IMG/VR virus record: IMGVR_UViG_3300017753_000144
Coordinates: 1-20,853 of that record
Origin: a virus
Strand: one strand, 5' to 3'
Length of the DNA stretch: 20,853 nucleotides
A program made the position numbers and the translations under genes. Below are positions 2,166 through 20,853 of the stretch, piece by piece (the first letter of the stretch is position 1; each line of letters opens with the position of its first letter). The notes beneath the pieces are model-generated. The model did no database searches and was not told where the DNA came from. It saw only the letters and a list, made by a program, of their open reading frames with translations.

Positions 2166-2792
2166 ATGTCTATTGAATGCTTAAATTGGTGTATCAAACA
2201 AAAATGCGCCACACCGTCTACCAAACTGGTACTGTTTGTGCTTTCAAATTATAGTGACGAAAAACATTCTTGCTATCCATCAGAAAAAAAACTTGCGGAA
2301 ATCGTAGGTGTTTCTGAGCGCCAGATAAGAAGATGTTTACATTGGTTAGAGGAAAACAAATATATAACGATACAACCGAGAGCGGGAACAAGTAATCGGT
2401 ACTTCATGAGGGTGGACATGGGTGTCCAGAGGGGTGGACATACACTTCCAGAGGGGGGTGGACATGGGAGTCCGCCTATACTAAAGAAAGATACTAAAGC
2501 TAATACTAAAGAGAAAACCAAAAGTAATTCATACACAAAAGAGTTTGAGATTTTTTGGTCAGTCTACCCAAGAAAAATAGGTAAGTATGGTGCGTTCAAA
2601 TCCTACGAGAAAGTTTCTAAGGAACACCCACACAAATTAATTTTAGAAAGAGCCAAGATATTTTCTAAGAACAACGAAATGACTGAAGAACGATTCATAC
2701 CGCACTGCACCACTTGGTTGAATCAACGGAGATTTTTAGATGTAGAAGTAAAAACTAAAAAGAAAAGTAGCTTGAATAGTTTAGCGGGTTAA
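2166..2792 (+). CDS. phage replication initiator, lambda O-like organisation
   Basis: 208 residues. Residues 1 to about 80 form a winged-helix domain of the HTH_36 kind (CYPSEKKLAEIVGVSERQIR followed by RCLHWLEENKYI and a basic wing). Residues 82-104 are a Gly-rich linker (RGGHTLPEGGGHGSP) encoded by DNA repeats listed separately. A Lys/Thr-rich spacer follows, then a C-terminal domain with FEIFWSVYPRKIGKYGAFKS and HCTTWLNQRRFLD, a motif pair common at the end of phage replication proteins. The order (DNA-binding N-terminus, origin repeats, partner-binding C-terminus) is that of lambda O. The start ATG at 2166 lacks a Shine-Dalgarno sequence and lies just after a -10 box, so the mRNA may be leaderless. 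The next gene is the primase-helicase, its likely loading target. Confidence 0.7.
   Translation: MSIECLNWCIKQKCATPSTKLVLFVLSNYSDEKHSCYPSEKKLAEIVGVSERQIRRCLHWLEENKYITIQPRAGTSNRYFMRVDMGVQRGGHTLPEGGGHGSPPILKKDTKANTKEKTKSNSYTKEFEIFWSVYPRKIGKYGAFKSYEKVSKEHPHKLILERAKIFSKNNEMTEERFIPHCTTWLNQRRFLDVEVKTKKKSSLNSLAG
2411..2478. repeat. three iteron-like repeats within the initiator gene; candidate replication origin
   Basis: Three copies of a 22-base unit starting GGTGGACAT begin at 2411, 2433 and 2457. Copy 1 is GGTGGACATGGGTGTCC plus AGAGG, copy 2 is GGTGGACATACACTTCC plus AGAGG, and copy 3 is GGTGGACATGGGAGTCC plus GCCTA. Copies 1 and 2 abut; copies 2 and 3 are separated by two extra G. Each unit has partial dyad symmetry (GGACA/TGTCC in copy 1, GGAC/GTCC in copy 3, GGA/TCC in copy 2). 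The repeats are G-rich in an A-rich gene. This matches iterons in the middle of lambda O-type genes. Being also coding, the repeats could partly reflect a Gly-rich linker. Confidence 0.6.
2478..2540. repeat. A-rich segment with three ATACTAAAG repeats beside the iterons; candidate unwinding element
   Basis: Directly after the last iteron come three exact copies of ATACTAAAG at 2478-2486, 2491-2499 and 2503-2511, spaced 13 and 12 bases apart. They are followed by more strongly purine-rich, A-dominated sequence to about 2540. In lambda-type origins an AT-rich stretch lies beside the iterons and is the place of strand opening. The same position and composition are seen here; the function is inferred. 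The stretch encodes the Lys/Thr-rich linker of the initiator. Confidence 0.45.
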
Positions 2793-2813
2793 TCAAAATG
2801 AATAGGAGTGAAT

Positions 2814-4550
2814 ATGAAAAAGAATATGTACGATATATTGTCAGAGAATCAAATCAAATTGAAATCTTACGAGGGAAATGAAAAAACTAAATGTAGAGAG
2901 TGTCAACCGCCACACAATAAAAATGACAACCCATTATCTGTAACTTGCGATAACGGTAATGCGGTTTGGAATTGTCATCATTGCGGTTGGACAGGTTCAA
3001 CAAATACTGGCAGTACAAATTTCGTCACGGCGAGAGAGAAGGTTTATGTAGCGCCCAAGCTACCAGAAAAAACAGAAACCCCATCATCAATGTATTCATG
3101 GTTTGCAGAGCGTGGAATCAGCAAAGAAACCGTACAGAAAAAAGGTATCTACATTGAAGATAAATACTGGATAGCGTTTCCTTACAAGGATGAAGAAGGC
3201 AAAGTAGTCAACATAAAGTACAGAACACAAAGCAAGAAATTCAAACAATCACCAAATGCAAAACGCTCACTTTACAACTACGATTTAGTCAAAGATTCGG
3301 AAACAATAATTTTCGTAGAGGGAGAAATGGATTGTCTTGTTCTAATTGAAGCGGGCTTTGACAATAATGTTGTGACACTGCCTGACGGTGCGCCTAAAGA
3401 AGCAAAGTTTAATGAGAAAGATGCTAGGTTTACTGCCTTGGAAAATTGCCCTTTAGATAACGCAAAGAAGGTCATACTTTTTGTAGATAATGACAGCGCG
3501 GGCAGAGCGCTTAACAAAGAATTATTACATAGATTCGGAAAAGAATTGTGTTGGTATGTTGATTACCCATCAGATGCCAAAGATGCAAATGAAGTTTTAC
3601 TCAAGCACGGGGTAAGCAAGATAAAAGAGATAGTAGAGAATGCAAAGCCGTACCCTATTGATGGATTGTTCTCTGCCCACCAATATTACGGCTCTGTGCT
3701 TGACCTTTACAACGGCAACTACACAAAGCCAATCAGCATAGGATATGAAAACCTAGATGAAAATTACAAAATTCTCAGAGGTACATTTCACACATGGACA
3801 GGTATTCCGAATCACGGAAAGTCCTCGTTTCTTGACCAATGCTTGATAAAGATAAGTGAAAAACATAACTGGCGTTTCGCTGTGTTTTCACCAGAGCATT
3901 CAGTACAGATGCACTTGCGCAGATTAGTGCAACTAAAATTAGGCAAGGCTTTTGATGAGGGATTTGCTAATCGCATGACTAAGGAAGAACTGCAAGGCGC
4001 TCTTGAATGGATAAATGAACACTTCTACTTCTTGGAAACCAAAGACACTACGCCAGACATTGACTATCTCATTGATAAAGCAAAAGGTGCGGTCTTGAAA
4101 TATGGTTGTGATGGTTTAGTAATTGACCCTTACAACGAAGTTTCAGCACTCCGCGGCAATATGAGAGAAGATGAACACATAAGAGATTTCATCAGCAAGC
4201 TAAAACGATTTGCAAGAGTCCATGATGCCTGTGTCTGGATTGTTGCTCACCCAACCAAATTACAGAAAGACCAAAACGGAAGCTACCCACCACCAAGCAG
4301 TTATGAGATTTCTGGGTCAAGTCATTGGAGTAATATGAGTGATGCAATCATAACAGTACACCGAGATTTTGATACAGATGTTACAAGAGTGATTACCAGA
4401 AAGATAAGAGAGCAAGGATTATATGGTCGTATTGGTGAAGCCACATTCAAGTACAATAAGACAAAAAAGAACTTTGAGATATATAAGGAACTAGATGTTG
4501 TTGATATACCTCATTGGACAGATGAAGATTATGAAAATATAAGGGGATGA
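2814..4550 (+). CDS. bifunctional primase-helicase (T7 gp4/Twinkle-like)
   Basis: 578 residues from the ATG at 2814, chosen because AGGAG lies 5 bases upstream; an in-frame GTG at 2808 overlaps that site. The N-terminus has a zinc-ribbon-like set CREC (C27, C30) and CHHCGW (C54, C57) for template recognition. A Toprim primase core follows with VEGEMD (E169, D173) and VDNDSAG (D225, D227). The C-terminal half is a RecA-fold DnaB-type helicase: Walker A GIPNHGKS at 330-337, Walker B DGLVID ending at D438, then a VAHPTK motif. All parts needed for priming and 5'-3' unwinding at the fork are visible in one chain. It lies 21 bases after the initiator gene and is probably co-transcribed with it. 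Confidence 0.88.
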   Translation: MKKNMYDILSENQIKLKSYEGNEKTKCRECQPPHNKNDNPLSVTCDNGNAVWNCHHCGWTGSTNTGSTNFVTAREKVYVAPKLPEKTETPSSMYSWFAERGISKETVQKKGIYIEDKYWIAFPYKDEEGKVVNIKYRTQSKKFKQSPNAKRSLYNYDLVKDSETIIFVEGEMDCLVLIEAGFDNNVVTLPDGAPKEAKFNEKDARFTALENCPLDNAKKVILFVDNDSAGRALNKELLHRFGKELCWYVDYPSDAKDANEVLLKHGVSKIKEIVENAKPYPIDGLFSAHQYYGSVLDLYNGNYTKPISIGYENLDENYKILRGTFHTWTGIPNHGKSSFLDQCLIKISEKHNWRFAVFSPEHSVQMHLRRLVQLKLGKAFDEGFANRMTKEELQGALEWINEHFYFLETKDTTPDIDYLIDKAKGAVLKYGCDGLVIDPYNEVSALRGNMREDEHIRDFISKLKRFARVHDACVWIVAHPTKLQKDQNGSYPPPSSYEISGSSHWSNMSDAIITVHRDFDTDVTRVITRKIREQGLYGRIGEATFKYNKTKKNFEIYKELDVVDIPHWTDEDYENIRG

Positions 4551-17245: not shown

Positions 17246-17596
17246 ATGAGCGCGGGTTATCATCATTTTGTAATAGAACAAGGGGCTACATTCGGACAAG
17301 TCCTGACACTGAAGGATTCTAGCGGTACAGTAATTAATTTAACTGGTTACAGTAGCGCTGAAATGGATTTGAGAGAAAATCCTGAGTCTGACAGCGTTAT
17401 CATGACATTAACTACAGCAAACAGCAGAATCGCTTTAGGTGGTGCGGCGGGTACTGTCACATTATCAATAAGCGCTACAGATACAGCTAATCTATCAACT
17501 GGTGATGGCGTATATGACCTAGAGATTGTAACTGGCAGTAGTATATACCGTATTCTTGAAGGTACTTACAGCGTAAGAAGGAATATGAGTAGATGA
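17246..17596 (+). CDS. small structural protein, beta-rich, 116 residues
   Basis: Start ATG at 17246 with AGAGGAATAGG upstream. The sequence HHFVIEQGATFGQVLTLKDS, INLTGYSSAEMDLRENPESD, then a short ITLG-type hairpin (RIALGGAAGTVTLSIS) and GVYDLEIVTGSSIYRILEGT resembles a family of small phage proteins with an immunoglobulin-like beta fold encoded next to tail-fibre genes. The ending YSVRRNMSR is basic. It probably joins or anchors the fibre encoded next, whose start overlaps this stop (ATGA at 17593). This is inferred from position and fold. Confidence 0.62.
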   Translation: MSAGYHHFVIEQGATFGQVLTLKDSSGTVINLTGYSSAEMDLRENPESDSVIMTLTTANSRIALGGAAGTVTLSISATDTANLSTGDGVYDLEIVTGSSIYRILEGTYSVRRNMSR

Positions 17597-20500
17597 GTGG
17601 TACAGACAACATTACTATCAATCCTACTAGTACCATTAATCAAATTGAAGTAACTGACTCAACAAACATCTCAATAGTAACCGTTGGTACTCAAGGTCTA
17701 GCGGGTGCAAATACTTTACTTGGCAGAGATGTTGATTCTGCAACTGCAAGCACGGCGGGGTCATTGGTTATATATGACCATGACAATACAGAATGGATAG
17801 ATAGCCAATCAACAAGAGCGCAATCCGTACCCGCAAAAATATACAGTCTAATATTCACCAGTGGTGGTGCTACTGTCACAGGCGTACTAGATGAAGATAA
17901 TCTAGGCTCAGACAGCAACAGCAAACTTGCCACACAGCAATCAATTAAAGCGTATGTAGATGCACAGATAACAGCGCAAGATATGGATTTTCAAGGCGAT
18001 AGTGGTGGCTCTTTATCCATAGACCTAGATAGCGAAACATTCACCGTAGCGGGCGGTACAGGCATTGATACTGTAGGTGGCACTAATACCATTACTGTCA
18101 GCATAGATTCAACTGTAGCGACATTGAGCGGCTCTCAGACACTAACAAACAAAGTATTAACAAGCCCAGATGTAAACGCACCAGATATAGACGGTGGAAC
18201 AATAGATGGGGCAACCATAGCAACATCAAACATCACAGTAGGCTCTGGTAAAACATTAGATGTATCAGGTGGAACATTTACCCTAGCAAATAACCAAATA
18301 TCAGGTGATAAAGTAGAGGGTGGTACTATTGCCGCAACTACAATCACAGATTTAGCTTCAACTACGGTAGATACCACAAACATTGAAGTAACAAACATAA
18401 AAGCAAAAGACGGCACTGCGGCGGGTTCAATAGCCAACTCAACAGGTGTTGTCACATTAGCAAGCTCAGTATTAACAACGACAGACATCAATGGCGGTAC
18501 TATAGACGGAACTAATATAACTGTAGGTAGCGGTAAAACCCTTGATGTATCAGGCGGTACATTCACATTAGCTAATGACCAAATAAGCGGAGATAAGATA
18601 CAAGGCGGTACAGTCGCATCAATGACCATTACGGCAATGACAGGTACGCTAGAAACTGCCGCACAACCTAATGTAACTTCACTAGGTACACTATCCGCAC
18701 TAACCGTTGATGATATAGCGTTAGATGCCAAAACAGTAACAATGACAGGCTCATCTGGTGATACGGCTACCTTAGTAGTAGGTACTAACGGAACGCTTGA
18801 TATAACAACTACAGATGCTTCTGCGGCGGCGGCTAATATTCAAATTACTGCTGATGGTACAGCAGAACTAGCGGGAACTACCGTAACCTTAGATTCAAGT
18901 GGCGGTATTACGCTAGATGCAGACGGTGGCACAATTACATTTGCAGACGGTGGCTCATCATTAGGAACAATTACATCTTCTGGTTATACAGGTGATGTTG
19001 TTGGTAACGCTTCTACTGCAACGGCTCTGGCTACTGCAAGAACAATAGGCGGTACATCTTTTGATGGAACAGCAAACATATCTGTAGCATTGGCAGATAC
19101 GGCTACTGCTTTAGCTACTGCGAGAACAATACATGGCGTATCTTTTGACGGTACAGCTAATATAGACCTCAGTGAAGTAATATCAGACACAGTAGGGGCT
19201 ATGTTTAGCTCAAACACGGAAACAAATATAACCGTTACTTATCAAGATTCAGACAATACTATTGATTTAGTAATTGGCACGCTTAACCAAGACACTACAG
19301 GTACAGCAGACAACTTTACAGTGACCGCTAACAACTCTACTGATGAAACGGTATATCCAATATTTGTTGACGGTGCTACTGGTTCACAAGGTGCTGAAAC
19401 TGATACTGGTTTAAGCTATAACCCTAGCTCTGGAAACCTAACAATAGGTGGTGCGCTTGTAGCCGCAACCTTAGACATATCAGGTAACGTAGATGTAGAT
19501 GGTACATTGGAAGCTGATGCTTATACTGTAGATGGCACGGCATTAGATGAATTCATAGCTGATACCGTTGGCGCAATGGTTTCTAGTAACACAGAAACGA
19601 ATGTAACTGTTTCATACCAAGACTCTGATAACACATTAGATTTCGTAGTAGGAACTTTAAATCAAGACACAACAGGTAACGCCGCAACTGCAACAGCGCT
19701 AGAAACAGCAAGAAACATAGCATTAGCGGGTGATGTAACAGGTACAGCATCATTTGATGGCACAGGCAATATATCTATAACTTCAACAATAGCCGCAAAT
19801 AGTGTGGCTTTGGGTACTGATACAACAGGTAATTATGTTGCAACAATAGCGGGTACATCAAACGAGATTGAGGTAAGTGGGTCAGGCTCAGAAAGTGCGG
19901 GCGTAACAATCGGCTTGCCAGATAACGTCACAATAGCGGGCAACCTAACTGTTACAGGTGATTATACAGTCAATGGTGATACTACAACTGTTAATACAGC
20001 AACCTTAACCGTTGAAGACCCTCTAATTAAATTAGCAAAAGCAAACTCAAGCGCTGATTCAGTAGATATAGGTTTATATGGATTGTATGACACATCTGGT
20101 TCTCAAGACTTGTACTCTGGTCTATTTAGAGATGCTAATGACTCAGGAAAGTGGAAGCTATTCAAAGACTTACAAGCAGAGCCAACAACCACAGTAAATG
20201 TATCAGGAACAGGTTATGCGGTTGGAACTTTAGTAGCAAATTTAGAAGGGGCGGTCACAGGTAACGCAAGCACGGCTACAACCCTAGCAACGGCACGCAC
20301 AATCGGTGGTACAAGTTTTGACGGTTCAGCAAATATCGCAGTAGCATTAGCGGATACCGCAACCGCACTAGCAACCGCACGGAATATTGGTGGTACTTCA
20401 TTTGACGGAACTGGAAATATAGATGTAGCTTTATCTACTCTTGCAACCAACATAACCGTATCAGCGAATAACTCAACTGACGAAACTGTCTACCCATTGT

Positions 20501-20853
20501 TTGTAGATGGGGCAACTGGAACGCAAGGGGCAGAAACAGATACAGGTCTTACTTATAATCCTTCAACAGGAATGCTAACAAGCAGTGGATTCACAGGTGC
20601 ATTGACAGGTAATGCTTCAACCGCAACCACATTAGCCACAGCGCGTACCATTGGTGGTACATCATTTGATGGGTCAGCAAACATAGCGGTAGCACTTGCC
20701 GCCACTGCAACTACACTAGCTACGGCGCGTACCATTCATGGTGTAAGTTTTGATGGATCAGCTAATATTGATCTATCAGAGGTTATTTCAGATACCGTAG
20801 GTGCAATGTTCTCATCTAATACAGAGAGCGGCATAACGGTAGCCTATCAAGAC
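17593..20853 (+). CDS. giant repetitive tail fibre protein, C-terminus beyond the window
   Basis: Open frame of 1087 codons with no stop, starting at the ATG at 17593 that overlaps the previous stop; AAGGA lies about 11 bases upstream. The N-terminus has SIVTVGTQGLAGANTLL and a repeated GSGKTLDVSGGTFTLAN module, and the rest is built of Gly/Thr/Ala/Ser/Asp-rich repeats such as GNASTATALATARTIGGTSF then DGTAN, and NSTDETVYPIFVDGATG. One non-repeated segment, VDIGLYGLYDTSGSQDLYSG then LFRDANDSGKWKLFKDL, is typical of marine phage fibres. There are no Cys, no signal peptide and no enzyme motif so far. It would form a long trimeric beta-fibre for host attachment. The receptor-binding tip and any chaperone are expected past 20853. 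Confidence 0.82.
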   Translation, partial: MSGTDNITINPTSTINQIEVTDSTNISIVTVGTQGLAGANTLLGRDVDSATASTAGSLVIYDHDNTEWIDSQSTRAQSVPAKIYSLIFTSGGATVTGVLDEDNLGSDSNSKLATQQSIKAYVDAQITAQDMDFQGDSGGSLSIDLDSETFTVAGGTGIDTVGGTNTITVSIDSTVATLSGSQTLTNKVLTSPDVNAPDIDGGTIDGATIATSNITVGSGKTLDVSGGTFTLANNQISGDKVEGGTIAATTITDLASTTVDTTNIEVTNIKAKDGTAAGSIANSTGVVTLASSVLTTTDINGGTIDGTNITVGSGKTLDVSGGTFTLANDQISGDKIQGGTVASMTITAMTGTLETAAQPNVTSLGTLSALTVDDIALDAKTVTMTGSSGDTATLVVGTNGTLDITTTDASAAAANIQITADGTAELAGTTVTLDSSGGITLDADGGTITFADGGSSLGTITSSGYTGDVVGNASTATALATARTIGGTSFDGTANISVALADTATALATARTIHGVSFDGTANIDLSEVISDTVGAMFSSNTETNITVTYQDSDNTIDLVIGTLNQDTTGTADNFTVTANNSTDETVYPIFVDGATGSQGAETDTGLSYNPSSGNLTIGGALVAATLDISGNVDVDGTLEADAYTVDGTALDEFIADTVGAMVSSNTETNVTVSYQDSDNTLDFVVGTLNQDTTGNAATATALETARNIALAGDVTGTASFDGTGNISITSTIAANSVALGTDTTGNYVATIAGTSNEIEVSGSGSESAGVTIGLPDNVTIAGNLTVTGDYTVNGDTTTVNTATLTVEDPLIKLAKANSSADSVDIGLYGLYDTSGSQDLYSGLFRDANDSGKWKLFKDLQAEPTTTVNVSGTGYAVGTLVANLEGAVTGNASTATTLATARTIGGTSFDGSANIAVALADTATALATARNIGGTSFDGTGNIDVALSTLATNITVSANNSTDETVYPLFVDGATGTQGAETDTGLTYNPSTGMLTSSGFTGALTGNASTATTLATARTIGGTSFDGSANIAVALAATATTLATARTIHGVSFDGSANIDLSEVISDTVGAMFSSNTESGITVAYQD
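18229..18612 (+). repeat. tail-fibre repeat C: two 33-codon copies
   Basis: Copies at 18229-18327 and 18514-18612 encode nearly the same protein, opening NITVGSGKTLDVSGGTFTLA and continuing with an ISGDK motif and GGT. The only amino-acid changes are N to D, V to I and E to Q near the end. Many codons differ between the copies. The spacing is 285 bases, the in-between part also ending in an INGGTIDG-like lead-in. Confidence 0.85.
19003..19302 (+). repeat. tail-fibre repeat A, full-length copy 1
   Basis: A 100-codon unit: two ATARTI-GG/HG-TSFDG-TANI half units followed by SEVISDTVGAMFSSNTE, TVTYQDSDNT and GTLNQDTTG. Further copies are partial: 19549-19677 (second half only), 20260-20436 (first half), and 20608-20853 (copy cut by the window edge). 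Protein identity is high while codons differ widely. Confidence 0.88.
19312..19443 (+). repeat. tail-fibre repeat B, copy 1
   Basis: A 44-codon unit with ANNSTDETVYPIFVDGATGS then QGAETDTGL and YNPSSGNLT. The second copy is at 20449-20580, same length, with a handful of conservative changes (I to L, S to T). A B unit follows A copy 1 after three codons, and B copy 2 lies between A copies 3 and 4. Confidence 0.88.
19549..19677 (+). repeat. tail-fibre repeat A, copy 2 (second half only)
   Basis: 43 codons matching the second part of repeat A (19174-19302) in exact register and length: DTVGAM-SSNTETN, SYQDSDNTLDFVVGTLNQDT. It is followed by a degenerate first-half-like stretch (NAATATALETARNIALAGDV), so the A units seem circularly permuted through the fibre. 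Confidence 0.82.
20260..20436 (+). repeat. tail-fibre repeat A, copy 3 (first half)
   Basis: 59 codons with two half units: GNASTATTLATARTIGGTSF then DGSANIAVALADTATALATA and RNIGGTSFDGTGNIDVALS. The SEVISDTVG part is absent; repeat B copy 2 follows four codons later. Confidence 0.85.
20449..20580 (+). repeat. tail-fibre repeat B, copy 2
   Basis: 44 codons aligned without gaps to 19312-19443; reads SANNSTDETVYPLFVDGATG then TQGAETDTGLTYNPSTGMLT. Confidence 0.88.
20608..20853 (+). repeat. tail-fibre repeat A, copy 4 (runs off the window)
   Basis: 82 codons aligned without gaps to the start of copy 1 at 19003; the window ends inside its YQDSDNT motif, so the repeat, and probably the alternating A/B pattern, continues. 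Confidence 0.88.

Follow-up and report, generated by a model that had tools for sequence, protein, structure and literature searches.

The replication origin of phage lambda is the classic example of how DNA strands are opened, and what its AT-rich sequence contributes on its own is still debated. In oriLambda, the origin lies inside the gene for the winged-helix-type initiator O, where four dyad iterons with spacings of 20, 24 and 23 nt occupy codons 117-144 of 299 (39-48% of O), between the parts for the DNA-binding and C-terminal domains. The AT-rich flank is strand-asymmetric, with 73% AT and 71% purine in the 48 nt past the last iteron. In the lambda O-P replicon, the gene downstream encodes the helicase loader P and the helicase is the host DnaB; in P22, the next gene encodes a DnaB-type helicase. 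The oriLambda type, which P22 gene 18 and the Stx phages also represent, is the nearest known relation of the origin described here. Lambda, P22 and phage L carry different iterons within the coding region (PMC8022706), lambda O binds its AT-rich tract as single-stranded DNA, and unwinding requires this tract (PMC7466680), and lambda iterons bind dimers, whereas plasmid iterons bind monomers (PMC5043065). The iteron plasmid origins (RK2, F and P1) also have direct repeats beside an AT-rich region with short repeats. A winged helix, a repeat-bearing linker and an FW..YP...TWLN-type C-terminal domain are found in the PHROG 270/HTH_36 initiators of SfV (orf39) and of Vibrio, Arthrobacter and Acinetobacter phages.

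Here we analysed a record of 20,853 bases (the window, meaning this whole stretch) from a marine tailed phage with an HK97-type capsid, a terminase and a replication module, as recognized with Pfam. An earlier note had read a lambda-like origin into the initiator gene of this phage. The layout shared with lambda and the conservation among relatives at the DNA level supported this reading, and positions 2408-2530 very probably form a theta-type replication origin built like oriLambda, inside the initiator gene, as far as the binding and opening steps are concerned. Three features go beyond the earlier note, namely a fixed 4-nt register, an A-rich element common to lambda, and a primase-helicase that replaces the equivalent of lambda P.

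The initiator and its predicted structure

The initiator gene (2166-2792, + strand) encodes 208 aa and stands at the head of a rightward operon. Its product matched Pfam HTH_36 (8.6e-10) and the PHROG 270 replication initiation protein (5.5e-37 over residues 6-197, a span with both winged helix and C-terminal domain), and the C-terminal domain alone matched PHROG 270 at 8.3e-16. PHROG O-like families gave matches (family 391 at 4.3e-13), Pfam Phage_rep_O reached only 0.075, which does not pass the cut-off of that family, and the protein may be a remote homologue of lambda O.

An AlphaFold2 model built on 46 aligned sequences predicted a confident winged helix at residues 3-81, a disordered linker with pLDDT <50 at residues 87-104 and 107-109, and a compact four-helix C-terminal domain at approximately residues 124-192. 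The modelled winged helix matched many solved winged helices (Z ~10; best rmsd 1.6 over 66 residues), which is a generic result, and a sequence search of solved structures with the initiator profile gave only weak matches to DnaD and transcription factors. A Pfam search with the C-terminal domain alone gave no family for the window's protein, and a structural comparison with 16 chains produced no usable match (the best had Z 2.2 and rmsd 3.9 over 56 residues). Kinship of this domain with known loaders is thus neither established nor excluded.

Iterons and A-rich element in the linker

Three 22-nt repeats lie at 2410-2431, 2432-2453 and 2456-2477, with start-to-start distances of 22 and then 24 nt and copies 77% identical to copy 1. 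They were already described in the earlier note and are real. An exact search of the record for GGTGGACATNNNNNTCC gave three matches, all on the + strand at the initiator iterons, and the reversed control gave none. The internal dyad symmetry ascribed to all three is strong in copies 1 and 3 and weak in copy 2. Iteron 1 (GGACATGGGTGTCC, 2414-2427, + strand) has perfect 5-bp arms (GGACA-TGGG-TGTCC) and iteron 3 (GGACATGGGAGTCC, 2460-2473, + strand) has 4-bp arms (GGAC-N6-GTCC), whereas iteron 2 (GGACATACACTTCC, 2436-2449, + strand) is an imperfect dyad with GGA-N8-TCC only, its TTCC right arm being shared with the relative L007. The iteron block has an AT content of 37%, compared to 61% for the whole record.

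Adjoining the repeats is an A-rich stretch (2478-2530, + strand) with 75% AT and 68% purine on this strand, which is the proposed DNA unwinding element. It contains the three exact repeats that had been pointed out, ATACTAAAG at 2478-2486, 2491-2499 and 2503-2511 (all + strand), and the first of them begins exactly 4 nt after the right arm of iteron 3. ATACTAAAG is found three times in the record, all of them here; shuffles gave an expectation of 0.43, and 1 of 100 shuffles reached three. In a literature search with the ATACTAAAG sequence, the matches listed, 15 of 119, were all unrelated.

The iterons fall in codons 83-103 of 208 (40-49% of the initiator), which is the same relative place as in lambda O, as had been claimed. 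Both they and the ATACTAAAG repeats are in codons for the linker that is predicted to be disordered and that joins the winged helix to the helical domain. A location between the DNA-binding and C-terminal parts of the initiator gene is a lambda-type feature that was thus also found here, together with an origin inside the initiator gene, a winged-helix-type initiator, dyad iterons approximately 20-24 nt apart and an AT-rich strand-asymmetric flank. There are three iterons with GGACN6GTCC here rather than the four of lambda. Compared to the plasmid iterons of RK2, F and P1, the dyads suit dimers and the origin lies inside the initiator gene.

The repeats might instead be features of the protein, where a linker of low complexity and a segment rich in Thr and Lys would produce a likeness of the DNA as a by-product. 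Most relatives show strong conservation of N-T-K-[DE] at the protein level, with T114 and K115 invariant, and lambda O carries DTKDTITKEK at the corresponding place. Against this, the copies are read in different frames, both within the window and among relatives. Iteron copy 1 is translated as VDMGV and copies 2 and 3 as GGH, so what is repeated is the DNA and not a peptide. Likewise, copy 1 of ATACTAAAG is read Ile-Leu-Lys and copies 2 and 3 are in the Asp-Thr-Lys and Asn-Thr-Lys frames, so their likeness does not stem from a repeated peptide. Iterons, dyads and ATACTAAAG copies are also far fewer in synonymous shuffles with the protein held constant (see below), and we consider a protein-level origin of the repeats to be extremely improbable.

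Conservation at the DNA level

We searched 2.9 million viral contigs by protein and obtained 6, 55 and, as the best of 318, 80 relatives. All of these come from contigs of uncultured viruses, and approximately 90 distinct relatives from public viral contigs were compared. For the synonymous shuffles, each protein was kept fixed and the codons were redrawn from local usage. In 15 near relatives, there were 33 GGACN6GTCC sites with at most one mismatch, whereas 500 synonymous shuffles averaged 4.6 and never exceeded 11. Across 24 linkers, 81 dyads were counted (shuffle mean 17.6, maximum 31), and the control region, codons 1-75, had 35 dyads compared to 33.0 in the shuffles. Of 24 non-redundant genes retrieved by protein search, 20 contained ATACTAAAG, where 5.85 were expected and 12 was the maximum in 1000 synonymous shuffles, and so did 31 of 36 further genes retrieved in the same way (near-identical genes included). 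No member of the family with the same initiator was found to lack the repeats, and each full-length linker inspected by eye had two or more dyad sites with an A-rich element after them.

All 15 near relatives shared the layout of a 14-bp iteron, 4 nt, and then ATACTAAAG or a variant differing at one base. The window and L007 have it in frame 0 and the other near relatives in frame 1. By eye, L387 and L397 also had the 4-nt gap between the iteron and the ATACTAAAG position, and the L397-L399 clade carried ATACTAAAG only in the degenerate form ATAATAAAG. The iterons vary by clade, for example GGGGTGTAGATACCCC in L050, GGTCTACAGACCCC in L057 and GGTCACTGATAACC in L217, whereas ATACTAAAG remains constant. 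The suggested covariation of the repeats with the winged helix was seen insofar as the iterons differ between clades whose recognition helices differ, in a comparison made without statistics. A scan of the DNA alone for two ATACTAAAG copies 2-5 nt apart gave at least 116 pairs, of which at least 84 were inside initiator ORFs (near-identical contigs included). A scan for two GGACAN4TGTCC dyads hit many contigs, mostly outside the initiator family.

The distant initiators from Arthrobacter, Vibrio, Acinetobacter, Pontimonas and EBPR phages have other direct repeats in the same linker. The PHROG 270/HTH_36 initiators introduced above are less than 30% identical to the present one and differ from it in their repeat sequences, several having a second repeat of the GAACC type. 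This second repeat (GAACCAGTCA, GAACCGTCC) was observed just past the iterons in L311 (SfV), L016 and L017 (Vibrio), L019 (Arthrobacter) and L014 (EBPR).

After its last iteron, lambda has ACAAAAGACACTATTACAAAAG, which amounts to two ACWAAAG elements (dinucleotide-shuffle p 0.003). In PhiR12_5, Proteus V3, P22, Mannheimia phage 1152AP2 and RCIP0034, iterons of other sequences are likewise followed by an ACWAAAG pair (p ≤0.002 each), and a matching ACAAAAG pair stands after quite different iterons in lambda, P22 and a Mannheimia phage; the two P22 copies are in different frames. Several of these phages have the segment by common descent and are thus not independent cases, and the pair is not universal among O-like genes, since it is absent from HK225, Kp5LV and SfV. 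The ATACTAAAG repeats in the window are stricter than the ACWAAAG elements of lambda. A partial literature search found no earlier report of an A-rich element common to lambda-type origins, although older comparisons of lambdoid origins exist.

Taken together, the excess over the shuffles, the 4-nt register kept in two frames, the retention of ATACTAAAG while the iterons change and the ACAAAAG pairs of lambda, P22 and Mannheimia clearly point to selection that acts on the DNA of the repeats and not on the protein.

Regulators typically have dyad sites to which a winged helix binds, and the site here is near the beginning of the replication operon. The dyads could thus be operators through which the initiator or another regulator controls its own gene and the primase-helicase, with no origin at this place. 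However, the site is approximately 245 nt downstream of the start codon and not at a promoter, and promoter-like matches in 1900-2900 were at chance level only. The initiator gene and its iterons were also found without a primase-helicase downstream, and control by operators would leave the fixed register with the A-rich element and the lambda layout unexplained. An operator function in place of an origin is therefore improbable.

For the lambda-like origin, the dyads and the predicted fold suggest that winged-helix dimers of the initiator would bind the three iterons in a first step. The bound array would then strain the DNA and open the adjacent A-rich region, where the ATACTAAAG repeats would be exposed as single strands and, by analogy with lambda O, probably held by the initiator. 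Strand melting and the firing of an origin at 2408-2530 are what we infer from these sequence comparisons. With iterons that are free to change and a 9-mer, ATACTAAAG, that is fixed in register, the family offers a natural experiment on the opening element, and the 9-mer can be recoded synonymously, leaving the protein untouched.

The primase-helicase and the C-terminal tail

The next gene (2808-4550, + strand) encodes a primase-helicase with a zinc finger, a TOPRIM domain and a DnaB/T7-type helicase (Toprim and DnaB_C in Pfam; PHROG 239 DNA primase/helicase, 1.3e-94), and this protein is the proposed partner of the initiator. A lambda-style origin here adjoins a T7-type primase-helicase. The downstream loader P and the use of host DnaB that mark the lambda O-P replicon were looked for, and the TOPRIM primase-helicase was found instead; the locus is thus a variant of oriLambda and not a member of the O-P replicons.

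The initiator ends in N-x-LAG (tail codons S-L-N-S-L-A-G, 2769-2789, + strand), whereas lambda O ends in NTDWIYGVDL. An N-x-[LI]-A-G tail was present in 70 of 73 initiators beside this primase-helicase and in 0 of 7 without it. Among 45 non-redundant rows, this helicase followed all 38 initiators that end in [LI]AG and none of the 7 others. Another 35 testable sequences, all with this helicase, comprised 32 that end in [LI]AG and three from one clade that end in I-Q-G. These three (L387, L388 and L394, with the tail S-W-I-Q-G beside a primase-helicase) weaken the association as a perfect rule, as do the distant initiators L107, L142, L160 and L167, which have other tails beside more distant helicases. 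The tail codons among the relatives include six Leu/Ile codons, all four Ala codons and all four Gly codons. This variety indicates that the tail is conserved as a peptide, and it ruled out that LAG is an artefact of a ribosome-binding site.

The co-occurrence suggests a third step, in which the initiator would use its C-terminal part, with N-x-[LI]-A-G at the end, to recruit the primase-helicase encoded next to it, and the phage enzyme would then stand in for lambda P and host DnaB. We give this recruitment by the tail an even chance. The origin could be lambda-like and the tail nevertheless unrelated to helicase recruitment, tail and helicase gene travelling together as neighbours. In most genomes, approximately 50 nt at most separate the tail codons from the start of the helicase gene, modules of phages are exchanged as blocks, and there are just 3-5 independent changes of tail and helicase: each changes five times on the winged-helix tree, and the three supported independent pairs are all concordant (sign test p 0.25). 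Travel as neighbours, however, does not account well for a tail that is conserved as protein across variable spacers, nor for its retention in mini-initiators that lack the entire C-terminal domain. Its probability is somewhat short of even. For the recruitment reading, the tail provides a candidate docking signal of three residues that can be tested.

The mini-initiators are 115-129 aa long and retain the winged helix, the iterons, ATACTAAAG and the N-x-LAG tail; they include L040, L042, L045, L048, L049, L052, L055, L058, L060, L066, L086 and L217. Initiators without an adjoining helicase often end in [ND]W-x-x-[DEG]-[LV] (L039, L053, L054, L059, L064, L196, L210 and L218), and by eye these tails resemble the C-termini of lambda O (L312), HK225 and Kp5LV. 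A modular initiator may tentatively be proposed, although we regard it as rather doubtful as a whole. The winged helix and the iterons would diverge together, ATACTAAAG would be a widespread opening element that is common to lambda and P22 and recognized as a single strand, and a swappable C-terminal peptide, either N-x-[LI]-A-G or the lambda O-like [ND]W-x-x-[DEG]-[LV], would set which helicase is loaded, the primase-helicase of the phage itself or one derived from the host. If this were true, the mini-initiators of approximately 120 aa would, to our knowledge, be the smallest lambda-type initiators.

GC skew and flanking genes

The cumulative GC skew, which the earlier note had proposed as a check, had its minimum in the window at 2281, approximately 130 nt before iteron 1, at a divergent switch of gene direction. 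In five longer related contigs, the skew tracked gene direction and had no minimum at the initiator. The GC skew thus neither supports nor refutes the origin, because it follows gene direction. A scan of 84,980 species genomes for a host assignment gave no match, and an Rfam search gave none reaching the gathering threshold.

The genes on the other side of the switch (605-2073 of the window, - strand) are leftward early genes, divergent from the initiator, and include a PD-(D/E)XK nuclease (Pfam 7e-6). Genes like these accompany the initiators of other clades in other orientations. At the far end of the window, 17593-20853 is a repetitive, tail-fibre-like ORF on the + strand of at least 1087 aa that runs off the end of the record.
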